Shown: positions 21,949 to 30,072 of the stretch, piece by piece
Layout of the letters: every line of letters begins with the position of its first letter
How positions within the stretch are numbered: position 1 is the stretch's first letter
NCBI RefSeq assembly: GCF_032051675.1
Contig: NZ_CP116968.1
Coordinates: 3,224,001-3,288,000, forward strand
Source: Candidatus Nitrospira neomarina
GTDB lineage: Bacteria; Nitrospirota; Nitrospiria; Nitrospirales; UBA8639
Direction: 5' to 3'
Length of the DNA: 64,000 nucleotides
The notes under the pieces: generated by a model
Database searches by the model: none
The model's input: the letters and a program-made list of their open reading frames with translations, nothing else
What the model was told of the DNA's origin: nothing
Made by a program: the position numbers and the translations under genes

Positions 21949-21978
21949 TTGACAAATGTTTTCTGCAAATTTTATATT
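21949..21978 (+). promoter_or_regulatory. Sigma70-like promoter of the sulfur-assimilation operon
   Basis: A perfect -35 TTGACA at 21949-21954 is followed after 18 bp by TATATT at 21973-21978, one mismatch from the -10 consensus. Transcription would start near 21985, about 30 bp before the Rrf2 gene. It is among the best promoter matches in the window. Confidence 0.75.
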
Positions 21979-21985
21979 GCACATT

Positions 21986-22008
21986 ATTCCTATCGTTTTA
22001 GTATGAAT
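21986..22008 (+). promoter_or_regulatory. Candidate Rrf2 operator (inverted repeat)
   Basis: ATTCCTA at 21986-21992 and TATGAAT at 22002-22008 form a dyad ATTCnTA-N9-TAnGAAT. It starts at the predicted transcription start and ends seven bases before the regulator's ATG. The position fits autorepression by the Rrf2 protein encoded directly downstream. No copy is obvious before the sulfite reductase gene. Confidence 0.5.
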
Positions 22009-22014
22009 TAAATC

Positions 22015-22473
22015 ATGAACAAGTTTCCGATCAAAGTCACGTATGGGATTATGGCCACAATCGAGCTAGCAAAGCAGGACAGGTCCATTCCGCTTCAAGC
22101 CAAAATCATCGCCCAACGACAGAGGATACCCTCTCGATTTATTGAGCAGATCCTTCAGCACTTGAAACAGGCCGGGATCATTAGGAGCCTTCGAGGAGCA
22201 CAAGGAGGGTATACCCTCGCACAACACCCCAGTCAGATTTCCCTGGCGGATTTAGTCAATTCAATGAATGGTTGGGCGACAGAACCACTGCTGCAACATG
22301 GGCACACCAACGGTCATTCGGAAAGCCGACAGGTTCCGAATGTCTTACTTTCAAATATTTGGCAACAGGTTCAAGAGGCGGAGCAGGCAGTTCTGCGTGG
22401 CATTTCCTTACAAAAATTGGTCGAACAGTATCAAACGCTCGAAACCCAGCGCTGCCTGATGTATCATATTTAG
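22015..22473 (+). CDS. Rrf2-family transcriptional regulator
   Basis: The 152-residue product has the Rrf2 winged helix in residues 1-85: KVTYGIMATIELA, then IPSRFIEQILQHLKQAGII (recognition region) and SLRGAQGGYTLA (wing). IscR-type and NsrR-type members bind Fe-S clusters through three conserved cysteines; this protein has only one Cys, near the C-terminus, so it is more like CymR, which senses cysteine status through protein partners. It is first in the sulfate-assimilation operon and is the natural candidate for its regulator. It has no Shine-Dalgarno sequence; the leader is about 30 nt. Confidence 0.9.
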   Translation: MNKFPIKVTYGIMATIELAKQDRSIPLQAKIIAQRQRIPSRFIEQILQHLKQAGIIRSLRGAQGGYTLAQHPSQISLADLVNSMNGWATEPLLQHGHTNGHSESRQVPNVLLSNIWQQVQEAEQAVLRGISLQKLVEQYQTLETQRCLMYHI

Positions 22474-22574: not shown

Positions 22575-25085
22575 ATGAACACCTCACCGGTCACCACCCG
22601 CCCTCCTGTTCAAACGGTTCCGATACCCCAGGAGATTCTTGAAGAAATAGAAACTTTCGAAGATGAGGTCAATCGCCTGCAATCAGGTGACACTCCAGCC
22701 GACGTGTTCAAACCGTTTCGACTCCAATACGGCATTTATGGTCAGCGCCAGGCGGACGTCCAAATGGTCCGGATCAAGATTCCCTTTGGTGGTCTGAACG
22801 CCAACCAACTACGACAAGTAGCAGACATTGCGGATACCTTTGCGACCGGCGTGGGACATGTCACGACGCGGCAGGATATTCAACTGCACTTTGTTCCCCT
22901 CCGCCACGTTGGCACCATCATGCGAAAACTGGCCGAAGTTGAACTCACCACTCGAGAAGCCTGCGCCAATACCGTCCGGAATGTCACAGCCTGTGCGTTG
23001 GCAGGGGTATGCCCCGGGGAAGTTTTTGACGTGACACCCTATGCGAAAACCGTGGCTTATCATTTATTACGGAATCCTCTCAACCAAAGTCTCCCTCGCA
23101 AGTTCAAGATTGCATTTTCCGGCTGTAAGCAGGATTGTGCCCTCACCCCCATCCACGATGTCGGGCTTCTGGCTGCTCGCAATCCCGAAGGGGTTCCGGG
23201 ATTCAAAATGGTCGTTGGAGGCGGCTTGGGGTCCACTCCCCGCCTCGCCAAAGTACTTCATGAGTTCGTTCCCATGGAAGAATTGATTCCCGCCATCGAA
23301 GCCATGCTCAAGGTGTTTGATAATTTAGGCAATCGAAAAAATCGAAGCAAAGCCCGGATGAAATTTGTCATTGACAAATTAGGGTTTGATGAATTTTCTC
23401 AACGATGGAAAGAGACCTACGATGCCATGTTGCAATCCGGCGCCACCAAACTTGGATTGAAAACGACCCCATATCCCGATGATCCTCCCTTGGTGATGCC
23501 GACGAAATCCGGGAACGGCACCTCCACCCAAGGCAATGGGAACAGGCATCCTCATGGCTCATCACAACATGAAGATCCCTCATCTCAAGAGGCGTTCGAT
23601 CATTGGTGTGCAACCAATGTAATTACGCAACGCCAGTCGAGCTACAGAACAGCGGTGGTGAGACTCCCCTCCGGTGATATCACGTCTGAGCAAATGTTTG
23701 GACTGGCCGATCTCGCCGAACGGTATGCCAATGGAAACCTACGTACCACCATCAATCAGAACATCATGGTGCGATGGCTTCCCGAACTGCGTCTCCGGCA
23801 CTTCTATGACGAACTAGTCGCTCATGGATTGGGGGACCCTGGAGCTGAAGGCGTAGCAGATATCGTCTCCTGCCCAGGGACCGACACCTGCGGACTGGGA
23901 ATCACCTCTTCCAAGGGACTGGCACGAGCGCTGGCAGAAGTGTTCCCTGCGGGAAAAATCGCAGGTGACCTGGAAGGGGTGAACGTGAAAATCAGTGGCT
24001 GCCACAATTCCTGTGCTCAACATCATATCGCCACAATCGGATTGCATGGAGTCGGTAAACGCATTGGAGACCATGTGGCGCCAGTGTATGAATTGCACCT
24101 TGGGGGACGGGTCAACGGCACGGCCAAAATTGCCCAACTTATTGTGAAGGTCCCTGCGAAAAACGTTCCCGCTGCCGTCCAGCATCTGCTCGATCTCTAC
24201 CGCCGGGATAGAAAAGATGGAGAGTCCCTCCTGGCGTTCATTGACCGCACTGGGAAACTTCGACTAAAAGATGAACTGATCCCCTACACCATTCTTCCCA
24301 CATATCAAGAGGACCCACAATTCTATGTTGACTGGGAAGGCGATGAGGAATTTTCGGTTGAAGACCTCGGACCCGGCGAATGCGCCGGCGGCGCATTGGA
24401 GATGATCGACAATCGGATTCTTGAAGCAGAACAGGAACTGTATCAAGCACGCCTGTTGGCTGAAAAACACCAATACGCGTTTGCCATTAACAAAGCCTAT
24501 CGAGCCGTAGTGGCAGGAGCAAAAGCCATCCTTGTCACAGAAGGGATTGATCCGAATACGGATGCCGACACCTTAGCGGAATTTGACAAGTTGATTGTGG
24601 CCAAAGGGCTCATGCCGGCGGAATACCATAATCTAGCCATGACCGTGGGCGATCTGGGGAACAAAGACGCCTCGGCTGACCTGACACAAGGGAAAATCGC
24701 CTTTACCAAAGGTTTCGTGGATCTCTGCCGGACCGTTTCGGATCAAATCGGCCAGGACCTCAAGTTGGCTCCGGCTGAACCGGGACAAAAATCCACTGAA
24801 TCAACCAGGACGGTACCCACGTCACCTGACAAGGCATCATCTCCATCAGGCGTGCCCGTCTATGACCTGCGGGGCGTGGCCTGTCCCATGAATTACGTGA
24901 AAACCAAGTTAAAATTAGAAATGATGGATCACGGTGAACAGTTGGAAGTATGGTTGGACGGCGGCGATCCGATTCGCAACGTCCCAGTGAGTCTTCGAAA
25001 CGATGGGCACAATGTGCTCAAACAGGAGCCCATAGATCCCGAAGAACAGCATTTTCGAGTGGTAGTGGAGAAAGTGGAACTGTAA
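22575..25085 (+). CDS. Sulfite reductase fused to HEPN-like and TusA-like domains
   Basis: The 836-residue product begins with two tandem nitrite/sulfite-reductase halves (about 45-250 and 345-560). Each has a ferredoxin-like part and a siroheme/Fe-S part. The C-terminal half has the normal cluster ligands C433-x5-C439 and C476-x3-C480. The N-terminal half also has a full set, C140-x5-C146 and C184-x3-C188. Arg and Thr residues in the HVTTRQDIQLHF and LRTTINQNIMVRW stretches fit siroheme carboxylate binding. Residues about 605-730 are an all-helical HEPN-like region, and 760-836 a TusA/SirA-like domain with C770 in VACPMNYVKTKL. The operon context indicates sulfite, not nitrite, as substrate. 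Confidence 0.88.
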   Translation: MNTSPVTTRPPVQTVPIPQEILEEIETFEDEVNRLQSGDTPADVFKPFRLQYGIYGQRQADVQMVRIKIPFGGLNANQLRQVADIADTFATGVGHVTTRQDIQLHFVPLRHVGTIMRKLAEVELTTREACANTVRNVTACALAGVCPGEVFDVTPYAKTVAYHLLRNPLNQSLPRKFKIAFSGCKQDCALTPIHDVGLLAARNPEGVPGFKMVVGGGLGSTPRLAKVLHEFVPMEELIPAIEAMLKVFDNLGNRKNRSKARMKFVIDKLGFDEFSQRWKETYDAMLQSGATKLGLKTTPYPDDPPLVMPTKSGNGTSTQGNGNRHPHGSSQHEDPSSQEAFDHWCATNVITQRQSSYRTAVVRLPSGDITSEQMFGLADLAERYANGNLRTTINQNIMVRWLPELRLRHFYDELVAHGLGDPGAEGVADIVSCPGTDTCGLGITSSKGLARALAEVFPAGKIAGDLEGVNVKISGCHNSCAQHHIATIGLHGVGKRIGDHVAPVYELHLGGRVNGTAKIAQLIVKVPAKNVPAAVQHLLDLYRRDRKDGESLLAFIDRTGKLRLKDELIPYTILPTYQEDPQFYVDWEGDEEFSVEDLGPGECAGGALEMIDNRILEAEQELYQARLLAEKHQYAFAINKAYRAVVAGAKAILVTEGIDPNTDADTLAEFDKLIVAKGLMPAEYHNLAMTVGDLGNKDASADLTQGKIAFTKGFVDLCRTVSDQIGQDLKLAPAEPGQKSTESTRTVPTSPDKASSPSGVPVYDLRGVACPMNYVKTKLKLEMMDHGEQLEVWLDGGDPIRNVPVSLRNDGHNVLKQEPIDPEEQHFRVVVEKVEL

Positions 25086-25091
25086 AACACC

Positions 25092-25808
25092 ATGGCTCTT
25101 TTCCTCAGTACCAAACCAACTCCAGAGGAACTCATCGCGGTCAATCGATCCATGGAGGGCCAAACTCCTCGGAAGATTGTCGAGACCGCGATTGCGGAAT
25201 ATGGGGGAACGATCATTCTGGCCTGTAGTTTTGGGGCCGAGGATGTTGTCCTGGCCGATATGATGTTTCGCTCAAATCCGGGCAGCACACTCTTTTATTT
25301 GGATACCGATTTTTTATTTCCTGAAACCCATGCTGTTCGGGATCGGATGATTCAACACTATCAGATAAAGGATGATCAGATCATCCAGGTCAAATCAACG
25401 CTCAGTCCCTCCGAGCAAGCCACAAAGTTTGGGGAAGCCTTGTGGCTTCGGGACCCCAACCAATGTTGCACACTCCGAAAGGTTGAGCCTCTCACATGCA
25501 TCCTGTCAAAGTATGCGGCGTGGATGACCGGTATTCGGCGTGATCAATCACCCACTCGTGCCAATGCCGCTATTGTCGAGTGGGATACGAAGTTTGGCCT
25601 TGTGAAATTTAACCCCTTAGCCGCCTGGTCATGGGAACAGGTCTGGGAATACATTCGCACAAATGCCGTTCCCTATAATGCATTGCATGATCAACACTAT
25701 CCCAGCATTGGATGTACCCATTGCACGGCACCTGTCAGGCCGGGAGAAGACCCACGCTCCGGACGATGGAAAAGTTCGGAAAAAACCGAATGTGGGCTTC
25801 ATCGATGA
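25092..25808 (+). CDS. cysH: Adenylyl-sulfate reductase, [4Fe-4S] type (CysH)
   Basis: CysH reduces activated sulfate to sulfite with thioredoxin. The 238-residue product has the PP-loop-like SFGAEDVVL near residue 46, the cluster ligands C125-C126 (NQCCTLRKVEPL) and C208-x2-C211 (GCTHCTAPV), and the catalytic C234 in the terminal ECGLH. The CC...CxxC set marks [4Fe-4S] enzymes that use APS directly; PAPS reductases of the E. coli type lack it. This agrees with the absence of an intact APS kinase in the operon. It starts six bases after the sulfite reductase stop. Confidence 0.94.
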   Translation: MALFLSTKPTPEELIAVNRSMEGQTPRKIVETAIAEYGGTIILACSFGAEDVVLADMMFRSNPGSTLFYLDTDFLFPETHAVRDRMIQHYQIKDDQIIQVKSTLSPSEQATKFGEALWLRDPNQCCTLRKVEPLTCILSKYAAWMTGIRRDQSPTRANAAIVEWDTKFGLVKFNPLAAWSWEQVWEYIRTNAVPYNALHDQHYPSIGCTHCTAPVRPGEDPRSGRWKSSEKTECGLHR

Positions 25809-25887
25809 TAATCCAGCCACATGACCATGCCGTCATTCATGACTTCACATTCATTTTTCTCAATCAAGTAGCTATTGGAGACCGCCA

Positions 25888-26301
25888 GTGAAGAAAATTG
25901 CCGTCATTATTACCAGAGGGGGATGGAACAATCTTTTCCAAGCCTGTGAGTGGATCGCCCTGGCAGCGGCCAGTGGCATCGAGGTGAGTGGCTATTTCCG
26001 TGACGAAGCCGCCGGTCGAATGACCAAAACCAAGATCAAAGAACTGACCATGTCCCCGGAGTTTAAAGGGCGAGAAGGCTTTATTCGTGAACTCTTGAAA
26101 AAAGAAGATAAAGCGGACCTCTCGAAACTCATGCAAACCTCCAAAGAAAAAGGAAACGTCAAATTTTCGGTGTGTACGGATTCTCTAAAATATTTTGGGG
26201 TGAAAGTCGAAGAGCTCATTCCGGAATTAGATGAAGTGCAAACCGCTCAGGCCTTCTGGAAAGAAGCTGTTCTTCCCGCTGACCAGGTTTTGACCTTTTA
26301 A
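25888..26301 (+). CDS. DsrE-family protein
   Basis: The 137-residue product opens MKKIAVIITRGGWNNLFQAC, the beta-alpha start of the DsrE/DsrF/peroxiredoxin-like fold, and contains KFSVCTDSLKYFGVKVEELI, whose Cys occupies the place of the reactive Cys of DsrE2-like sulfur carriers. Start is a GTG at 25888 with GGAG eight bases upstream. In sulfur oxidisers DsrE partners TusA in persulfide relay; here it sits with a TusA-like domain in an assimilatory operon, so a relay role is plausible but inferred. Confidence 0.8.
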   Translation: MKKIAVIITRGGWNNLFQACEWIALAAASGIEVSGYFRDEAAGRMTKTKIKELTMSPEFKGREGFIRELLKKEDKADLSKLMQTSKEKGNVKFSVCTDSLKYFGVKVEELIPELDEVQTAQAFWKEAVLPADQVLTF

Positions 26302-26315
26302 CCCGGAATCATGGC

Positions 26316-27404
26316 ATGGATCATCTGATTGCAAAAATTGGAAAAGGGCTGAAGGGGGCCAAGGATTTGACCTGGGACGAGGCCAAGCTGGCTCTGAACG
26401 CCATCATTGAAGGGCAGGCCACTGACGTTCAGGTGGGAGCGTTTTTGATGGCCATGCGGATCAAAACCGAATCCATCAGCGAACTCGCCGCGTTCACCAC
26501 CACGGTCCGCAGGTGGGCGCCACCGATTCCACTCCCGCATGCCGAAAACATTGTGGACCTTCCTCTCTATGGAGAAAAACACAACACCATCCATGTGGTC
26601 ATCGCCTCAAGTCTTGTTGCGGCTGCAGCCGGCGCAGGTCTCTTCATGCATGGCGTAGAAAACCCCGGCCTCCCATACGATCTCCCGCAAGTCCTTCGTC
26701 ACTTACAGCTTCCTATCGCCAATACTGCGGCTGAAGCAATTGAACATGGGACTCAATCGCCATGGGTGTACATGGATTTAGCAGGATATCATGCACCGTT
26801 AACCAAATTACTGGACCTGCGTCAGGCATTCGGGTTGCAGAATCTGTCCCATCAGGTGTCCAGACTACTGAACCCGGCCAGGGTCGGCTCACAAGTCATC
26901 GGAATTTCCCATCCTCCATACCTGGATAAAATGGTGGAAGCTTTGGATATGCTGGGCGCGAAGCGGGCATTGATTATTCAAGGAGTCGAAGGATTTCCCG
27001 AACTGTCCCTCTCCGCCCCTTCCTTGGCGCGCGAATTACGAAGCGGGCATATTTCATCATTAGCCTTTCGTCCCGATGATGCCGGATTCCGATCCGGACC
27101 ATTTCAAGCCATGAGTTCGACCATCAATGGGCCGGGATCCGGGAACCCCCAACATGAAGCTCAATTGATAATGCAATTACTCGTCGATCGCCAGAAAGGC
27201 GACCGACGGAACTGGGTGATCATGAATGCAGCCTTACTGATGTATGCCGCAGGGTTGGCTTCCTCTCTCGCGCAAGCCACACCGCTTGCCCAGGATACAC
27301 TGGATTCCGGAAAAGCCGGAGCGTTCTTTACCGCCTTGACCCAGGGACGCCCTCCCCAGTCCAAATTCGTTGTCCCACCAGCACCGGCGGAGGTGCCTGC
27401 ATGA
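26316..27404 (+). CDS. TrpD2-like (anthranilate phosphoribosyltransferase-related) protein
   Basis: The 362-residue product has the nucleoside-phosphorylase/TrpD fold: a helical N-domain ([31 protein letters not shown]) and a large alpha/beta domain. The glycine-rich PRPP-loop expected of TrpD (GTGGD) is replaced by sequence around [13 protein letters not shown], a feature of the TrpD2/YbiB group, which does not make tryptophan and is reported to bind nucleic acid. Its place between dsrE and cysD, with an ATGA overlap into cysD, ties it to sulfur assimilation. Its role there is unknown. Confidence 0.8.
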
Positions 27405-28201
27405 ACCATATTCGCCAGTTAGAAGATCAAAGCGTCTATATCCTGCGTGAGGCCTACAAAAACTTTGACAACCTGGCCATGCTGTGGTCCATGGGCAAAG
27501 ATTCTACGGTGTTGTTGTGGCTAGCCAGAAAAGCATTTTTTGGCCATGTTCCCTTTCCGTTACTCCATGTCGACACCAGCTATAAAATTCCTGAAATGAT
27601 TGAATATCGGGATCGCCTCGCACGCGAATGGCGATTAAATCTGATCGTGGGCCAAAATAAAAAAGCCCTGGCCGAAGGGATGAACCACACGAAGGGACGA
27701 GTGGAATGTTGCACCGCCTTAAAAACCCTAGGATTAAAACAATTGCTGGAAGAAAAAGGCTACACCGGGGTCATTTTGGGTGTGCGATCGGACGAGGATA
27801 GTACCAGGGCGAAGGAGCGGTATTTTTCCCCACGGGACAAAAACAATGAATGGGATTTTCGCGATCAGCCCCCCGAACTTTGGGATCAATATAAACTATC
27901 GTTTCCTCCAGGCACCCATATCCGGATCCATCCCCTTTTGGATTGGACAGAGATCAATATTTGGGAGTACATCAAATTAGAAAATATTCCCTTTCTGGAT
28001 AATCTCTACCTGGATCAAGGCACCGGCAAACGCTATCGCAGTCTGGGATGCGCCCCATGCACGACACCCATTGATTCCACCTCGAAAAATGTGGATGAGG
28101 TCATCATTGAATTACGCAACACCAAGGTGGCGGAGCGGGCAGGACGCGCACAGGACGAAGGACGGGGGATGGAACAATTACGCAAAGATGGATACATGTG
28201 A
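27401..28201 (+). CDS. cysD: Sulfate adenylyltransferase subunit 2 (CysD)
   Basis: CysD, with the GTPase CysN, makes APS from sulfate and ATP. The 266-residue product has the PP-loop SMGKDST at 30-36, [11 protein letters not shown], and the C-terminal signature [16 protein letters not shown]. Length is somewhat below that of E. coli CysD (about 300). It overlaps the TrpD2-like gene by ATGA and cysN by GTGA, so the three are translationally coupled. Confidence 0.96.
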
Positions 28202-30072
28202 AGATGACGGTCACACCAGCCATAGGCCAATCTCCCGACACTCCCCAGGACAAGTCCATCCGGGAGAGAATGAATATTGTAATTGTGGGTCACGTCGACC
28301 ACGGCAAATCCACGCTATTGGGGCGTCTGTATGCCGACACCGGAACCTTACCAACCGGCAAGATCGAAAAAATCCAGGCCATTTGCAAACAACAAGGCAA
28401 AGAATTCGAATACGCCTTTCTTTTTGATGCGTTTTTAGAAGAGCAACAACAGGGGATCACCATCGACACGGCCCGTACCTTTTTCTCCTGGGGCGGGCGA
28501 CAATACATCATTATCGACGCACCGGGACATAAGGAATTCTTGAAAAACATGGTGTCAGGTGCCGCTCGTGCCGAAGCGGCGCTCCTGGTCATTGATGCCC
28601 TGGAAGGCGTGCGCGACCAATCAAAACGCCATGGGCTGTTGCTCTCCATGTTAGGCGTCAAACAAGTGACCGTGGTGGTCAATAAAATGGATCTGGTCAA
28701 TTATCGGGAAGACACCTTTCACGCCATTGAAAAAGAATACCGGGAATTTCTCACCCAATTGAACGTCATTCCCCAATATGTCATTCCCGCGAGCGCCAAA
28801 CAGGGCATCAACATCATCAAATCAAGCCCGGAAACTCCATGGTACACCGGACCATCCGTCTTGGATTCCCTGGCGCATTTCCATCTGGAATCCAAACGTG
28901 CGGAACAAACGCTTCGTCTTCCCATTCAGGACGTGTATAAATTTGACGCCCGCAGGATTTTAGTTGGCCGGATCACGGCGGGGAAACTCAAGATTGGTGA
29001 CCGGCTGGTCTTTTCCCCTTCCAACAAGTCAGCCAATATCCAAACGATTGAAGCCTTCAATCTCGATCCACCGCCCACTCAAGCCGAAGCCGGCCAATCC
29101 GTCGGCATCACCCTGGACGAACAAATTTTTGTGGAACGAGGGGAAATTGCGACACACGATGATGCCAGGCCGTTGGTCTCTACCCGCATTCGTGCCAACT
29201 TGTTCTGGTTAGGAGGGCGTCCCTTAGAAACCCGCCGGCCCTATGTCTTACGACTGGCAACCAGAGAAGTTCCCTGCGAAGTGGCCACCATTCATCGCAT
29301 TGTGGACGCCACCAATTTAGACGACCGACAGACGCAAACCACCGTGAAACGGAATGAAGTGGCCGATATCACGCTTCGGACTAAATCTCCGATTGCCTTT
29401 GATCTCTATGCCCAGTTCGAGACAACCGGCCGCTTCGTCCTGGTGGACGAATACGATGTGGCAGGAGGGGGAATCATCACGGAACTGGTCCAGGATGACC
29501 AGGAAGATTTTCGAACGGAGGCACGAGAACGGGATTCCGCATGGGTCAAAGGAGATGTGGGAGCAGAAGACCGGGCTCAACACTATGGACATCGAGCGGC
29601 TGTGGTCTTACTCACCGGCCCAGATACCACCGCGAAAGGATTTCTGGCTCGAAAACTGGAAACCGTCTTAGTCGCGGAAGGCCGGCATGCCTACCTTCTC
29701 GCGCCGGAAAATCTACAACGGGGACTTGATGCGGATCTCGTTGACACGAAACCGGATGAAATCATCCGACGGTTTGGTGAAGTCGTGCGGTTGCTGACCG
29801 ATACAGGCTCCCTGGTGATTTCCACAACCAATGCACTCCATGAACCGACCAAACACATCGTGCAAACCGTCCAAACGTTGGTGAACCCGATCCCGGTCAT
29901 CACCATCCATATGGCCAAAGATTTACAAGGACCTCAACCCGATACCGATCTGATTTTTGCAGGGCCGGAAAATTTCGACGACTGTACTCACCAAATCATT
30001 GCTTTGCTCAAATCCAGGGGGATTCTGGCTGAACCGTCCGAGGGCCGTGCCGACTTTCAGTACTCCATTTAA
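28198..30072 (+). CDS. cysN: Sulfate adenylyltransferase subunit 1 (CysN) with degenerate APS-kinase domain
   Basis: Residues 1-440 are a translational-GTPase-like CysN: G1 GHVDHGKST at 31-39, G3 DAPGH near 108-111, G4 NKMD at 162-165, then two beta-barrels. Residues about 462-615 align with APS kinase (CysC) in the [13 protein letters not shown] and [12 protein letters not shown] segments. However, the P-loop, normally GxxGxGKS/T, reads GPDTTAKG at 474-481, and the DGDN motif is APEN. Kinase activity is therefore unlikely. GTP hydrolysis drives APS synthesis by CysD. The start is a GTG overlapping the cysD stop. It is the last gene of the operon. Confidence 0.93.

Follow-up and report, generated by a model that had tools for sequence, protein, structure and literature searches.

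Candidatus Nitrospira neomarina encodes an Rrf2-family regulator directly in front of genes for sulfate assimilation, and the question raised by this locus is from which site the regulator acts, on what, and in response to which signal. The window is a stretch of 64,000 nucleotides from contig NZ_CP116968.1 (positions 3,224,001 to 3,288,000 of the forward strand), and coordinates are counted from its first letter. Inferring DNA binding, repression, docking and signal alike, we consider it likely that the Rrf2 protein, bound to a dyad, represses its own sulfate-assimilation operon and reads the cysteine status via the cysteine synthase CysK. On the forward strand before the regulator gene, a promoter scan locates a -35 hexamer TTGACA (21949-21954) and a -10 hexamer TATATT (21973-21978), which share 11 of 12 positions with the sigma-70 consensus across an 18-nt spacer. 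This promoter is the best among four promoter-like matches between 21750 and 30300 (shuffles mean 7.7), and of 133 homologues, 132 have TTGAC in the 100 bp before the gene. Seven bases behind the -10 hexamer lies the dyad ATTCCTATCGTTTTAGTATGAAT (ATTCCTA-N9-TATGAAT; 21986-22008, forward strand), a putative operator read in the sequence and from its conservation, which ends six bases before the ATG at 22015. A rule-of-thumb estimate puts the transcription start at about 21984-21987, under the dyad. The exact pattern has one copy in the window against 0.01 expected by chance, a count for which the pattern was picked after the site was seen, so that the real test is conservation.

Behind the regulator, the genes from 22575 to 30072 on the same strand are a predicted sulfate-assimilation operon. 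Domain and NCBIfam matches identify a sulfite/nitrite reductase carrying fused HEPN and TusA domains (836 aa, 22575-25085), the APS/PAPS reductase CysH (25092-25808), a TrpD/YbiB-like glycosyl transferase family protein (26316-27404), the sulfate adenylyltransferase small subunit CysD (27401-28201) and a CysN-type large subunit with an APS kinase-like end (28198-30072). A DsrE-family protein (25888-26301), assigned by domain match, is found in only 4 of the 70 order loci with at least 5.5 kb downstream. In these 70 loci, sulfite reductase, CysH and CysD are always present, the TrpD-like protein is found in 69 and CysN in 65. As side observations, the reductase is followed by HEPN and TusA stretches in 70/70, and the TrpD/YbiB-like protein is retained within a sulfate-assimilation operon in 69/70.

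An orthologue of the regulator was found in 110 of the 117 genomes of the order at E <= 1e-25, the seven misses being 84-93% complete genomes, and the upstream regions of all 110 were read (the clostridial L017-L019 stand outside the order counts). Within the genus, own genome included, all 18 loci score 19-20 of the 20 defined dyad positions, compared with a mean of 10.9 and a maximum of 14 for their shuffles; in the dyad, 18 of 23 columns never vary (mean 0.97), whereas this holds for 3 of the 60 just upstream (mean 0.60). For the other 92 order loci the genus pattern is uninformative (median 11, shuffle mean 10.3): what is conserved among them is a core and not the 23-bp site as such. Here the left arm of the dyad extends into a palindromic core, TTCCNAYCGGAA, present at no fewer than 9 of its 11 positions in 90 of the 92 loci (2.7% of shuffles) and in 17 of 23 loci of other orders (4.4% of shuffles); since the core was derived from these same sequences, the comparison with shuffles alone counts. 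Six of the 23 distant loci fall below this level, although parts of the arms are recognisable by eye in L249, L262 and L263. By eye, too, many sites resolve into three half-sites, namely TTCC, then GGAA and, further out, GGAAT. In the window's genus the core is not intact, its right inner arm being lost; by eye, the outer half-site pair is kept and the middle one lost. Among the 124 loci whose promoter was scored, 111 have a gap of 5-15 nt from -10 hexamer to core, and in 119 the core begins 20-31 nt ahead of the start codon, a spacing that is, as far as sequence can tell, the geometry of repression. In one distant locus, L250, the C-terminal tail discussed below is present and the upstream dyad absent; its gene lies directly behind another frame.

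In the arrangement that we propose, the 23-bp dyad would be the operator of the Rrf2 protein encoded directly behind it, and a regulator dimer on the dyad would cover the transcription start and block RNA polymerase, so that the regulator's own gene and the whole operon would be repressed. The same dyad lies within the predicted leader and adjoins the start codon, as would be expected if it worked in the mRNA as a hairpin controlling translation; a Shine-Dalgarno-like motif is seen in none of the 109 order leaders (AGGAG, GGAGG and GAGGT are all missing within 20 nt of the start codon), and the leader of the distant L252 folds somewhat better than its shuffles (z -1.77, 13/200). However, neither the window leader (z 0.73) nor the leader of L077 (z 0.53) is more stably folded than its shuffles, the dyad by itself yields -1 kcal/mol, and its letters are conserved beyond what pairing asks. 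A hairpin in place of a DNA operator is therefore scarcely probable, and as a candidate structure it was dropped, leader folding against shuffles giving it no support. Separately, it can be seen in the stretch 21985-22014 and in homologous leaders that the putative operator fills the usual Shine-Dalgarno place.

The number of sites per genome bears on whether the dyad belongs to this regulator. In the own genome (4.8 Mb), a search allowing up to 3 mismatches finds the 26-bp site in one place (reversed control 0), and on this ground the regulator seems to serve its own operon alone. The loose dyad occurs in two places without mismatch and in 11 with at most one (7 in the reversed control); a wider regulon in this genome was considered and rejected, as by eye only the operator among these places shares the core. 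Across the genus, 18 of 20 genomes yielded 20 places in all, and the two beyond the Rrf2 promoters are an incomplete copy of the regulator's promoter together with the beginning of its gene, at a contig end (G098), and a 3-mismatch match (G094). The strict core in the order gave 26 places in 25 of 114 genomes. We infer that the Rrf2 protein binds the dyad, and another regulator might be served by it instead, the Rrf2 gene being merely a target; but 18 of the 20 genus places and 25 of the 26 strict-core places stand at the Rrf2 gene, and the two genus genomes lacking that gene (E <= 1e-25) also lack the site, so that this alternative has very little to recommend it. Over the phylum, 32 places were found with up to 3 mismatches against 23 in the control, and 16 of the 18 with 0-2 mismatches lie at the regulator promoter, the others being in G176 and G083:C3. 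The latter, the strict-core exception (G083:C3:8572; L167:1501-1517), is operator-like by eye and stands directly before an in-frame ATG; the gene behind it encodes a secreted-looking, possibly outer-membrane protein, and the site returns with one mismatch in the phylum scan. It is a possible second target in one relative, and the regulator may have further weak targets. The first-pass annotation had claimed a near-consensus promoter and a dyad before the Rrf2 gene, arranged for autoregulation. Both lie where it placed them, with the start site covered; loss of the dyad in relatives with the operon, which it had named as refuting, was looked for and did not occur (18/18 at 19-20/20 in the genus); and the layout is supported by order-wide, partly phylum-wide conservation and by the single genomic site.

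The regulator itself (152 aa, 22015-22473, forward strand) is assigned to the Rrf2 family, and as CymR-like within it, by Pfam, NCBIfam and fold. It scores above the superfamily cut-offs (PF02082, 106.8 bits over 30; the general Rrf2 model TIGR00738, 100.9 over 73.3), and the best of the specific NCBIfam models is CymR (NF047409) at 84.9 bits, below the curated equivalog cut-off of 195; IscR (TIGR02010) reaches 70.3 bits, below its 207.55. On the CymR model, another five homologues with the tail reach 99.8 to 173.7 bits. The closest named relatives of the protein come from Nitrospirales and Nitrospirota assemblies. Its structure model has a mean pLDDT of 84.9, low at the last residues, and the top match in a fold search was Bacillus subtilis CymR (2y75, E 4.4e-10), with IscR proteins close behind; the fold alignment held 53 rows, leaving out L250, L268, L271 and others. 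IscR carries three cluster-binding Cys. The Nitrospira protein has one, six residues from the C-terminal end. A sensor of the IscR kind (iron-sulfur), of redox or thiol state, or of the Staphylococcus aureus CymR kind, with oxidation of a surface Cys, would fit the superfamily and the match to the IscR model, and four order orthologues do have four or five Cys. Nevertheless, 76 of the 109 readable orthologues (the masked L093 was dropped from tail, Cys and operon counts) have none and 29 have one, and the Cys position of the window protein is common to only 8 of the 109, which makes sensing of this type very improbable.

The C-terminal end is far more uniform. Its last codons (22459-22470, forward strand), compared with orthologues and with CymR tails, encode Met-Tyr-His-Ile, and in the 109 readable orthologues these residues are Met in 109, Tyr in 108 (Phe in one), His in 109 and Ile in 109, behind residues that vary. 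An M[YF][HYF]I end is found in 21 of 23 loci of other orders. Comparable tails occur in solved structures, with YMFYI in S. aureus CymR (3t8r) and its Listeria homologue (3lwf), and YMYYI in the Thermincola potens protein (4cic); for B. subtilis CymR (2y75), the alignment breaks off short of the end and does not cover the tail. C-terminal motifs containing Ile are listed for CysK partners other than CysE, B. subtilis CymR among those named (PMC12895370). The peptide MNYDI, whose Tyr is the third residue from the C-terminus, is reported to surpass the native CysE tails in affinity for CysK, and peptides that bind CysK well are said to favour an acidic residue or a hydrogen-bond acceptor at position four (PMC9547175). 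The His at position four of the present tail departs from that preference. A terminal Ile is the established mark of CysK docking, and we propose that the tail is a CysK-docking peptide. The first-pass annotation had stated that the protein has only one Cys, which is borne out, and that it is not an IscR-type Fe-S sensor, which the Cys counts support; its guess of CymR-like sensing through a partner gains sequence evidence from the invariant tail of CysK-docking type, the best specific NCBIfam model and the top fold match.

The proposed signal is the sulfur or cysteine status read through CysK, as in the CymR of Bacillus, where CysK is reported to make the complex of CymR with DNA more stable and to gauge cysteine through O-acetylserine (PMC2940859; PMC3828012). 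With cysteine sufficient and O-acetylserine low, the active site of CysK would take the Tyr-His-Ile tail and the repressor would be held on DNA; under sulfur shortage, O-acetylserine would rise, the tail would be displaced and the operon would be transcribed. A partner is available in the own genome, in which one of four PALP-fold proteins is CysK by TIGR01139 (452.8 over 350.95) and the other three look by eye like two threonine synthases and TrpB. Matched by eye, this CysK shows both the TSGNT loop and the QF pair; in Haemophilus influenzae CysK, threonines and Phe144 reportedly hold the Ile (PMC3805590). The protein might instead be an autorepressor at the dyad without CysK, sensing a small ligand (O-acetylserine, sulfide or cysteine) directly, with the tail serving another partner or stability. 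The operator evidence is independent of CysK, and the His at position four would sit well with this; on the other hand, four terminal residues invariant behind variable ones, a feature common to CymR proteins, and a CysK present in the genome make it unlikely. Repression assisted by CysK is the reading that we retain.

Several known systems can be compared with this locus. IscR of Escherichia coli autoregulates. The Nitrospirota regulator is like IscR and the Rrf2 regulators of isc and suf in superfamily and in being the first gene of an operon probably under its own control, and the T. potens protein 4cic, titled IscR, shares an Ile-type tail; unlike IscR, it has no cluster cysteines and heads an operon for sulfate assimilation, not Fe-S assembly. 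With CymR of B. subtilis and S. aureus it shares the Rrf2 fold, the absence of Fe-S cysteines, sulfur-assimilation targets and an aromatic-x-Ile tail, whereas it scores under the CymR cut-off, is devoid of a conserved redox Cys and has one site in its genome instead of a global regulon. Furthermore, cymR is described as constitutively expressed in Bacillus cereus and B. subtilis (PMC3519770), while the Nitrospirota regulator heads its own target operon, with a candidate operator at its own promoter. Its tail resembles the CysK-docking tails of CysE, CdiA-CT and EGL-9 in the C-terminal Ile, and its Tyr, third from the end, matches that of the tight binder MNYDI (PMC9547175), although the present tail is carried by a DNA-binding protein, has His at position four and is predicted to dock. 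CysK-assisted repression by CymR has been described from Firmicutes, and the present regulator is probably a CymR-like, CysK-assisted autorepressor outside that group.

CysE is present in 53 of 57 order genomes, and a C-terminal Ile was found in none of the 30 CysE proteins read out of 55 matches. Tentatively, and with somewhat more doubt than trust, we suggest that in much of the Nitrospirota the Rrf2 regulator and not CysE became the Ile-tailed partner of CysK, and that cysteine synthase, through O-acetylserine and sulfide, would directly set the transcription of a self-limiting sulfate-assimilation circuit of one operon. A form of CysK-assisted repression retained throughout a second phylum, and reduced to a single operator with a single operon, would reveal how Nitrospirota adjust the expensive reduction of sulfate. 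No literature joining Nitrospira, Rrf2 and sulfate assimilation was found, and a search for CymR with Nitrospir* and cysteine led to passages that deal with Fe-S regulators and mention CymR in general terms; both searches covered mostly papers outside subscription.

Among the 23 distant loci, L268 and L271 are the only two without the tail, and the core is also absent there. Both score higher on the IscR than on the CymR model (133.8 versus 121.8 bits and 131.1 versus 120.8 bits, respectively) and stand ahead of IscS/NifS-type cysteine desulfurases. In a tree of 46 rows, clostridial CymR-like proteins join these tail-less proteins (97/92), not the tailed Nitrospirota ones, with which no grouping was obtained; the deep forks are poorly supported. 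The tailed L252 stands ahead of an AprA-type APS reductase alpha subunit, the cluster of tailed L257 contains a sulfate adenylyltransferase, and in tailed L262 CysK is the second gene behind the regulator. In L249-L267 of other orders, an AprA-type APS reductase and a nearby sulfate adenylyltransferase replace CysH and CysDN (L252 and L257 checked, the others by eye). Finally, the CysK of the own genome (L168) has as neighbours, by eye, a small ThiS-like protein on one side and one resembling MoeB/ThiF on the other, a setting that suggests cysteine synthesis fed by a sulfur carrier.
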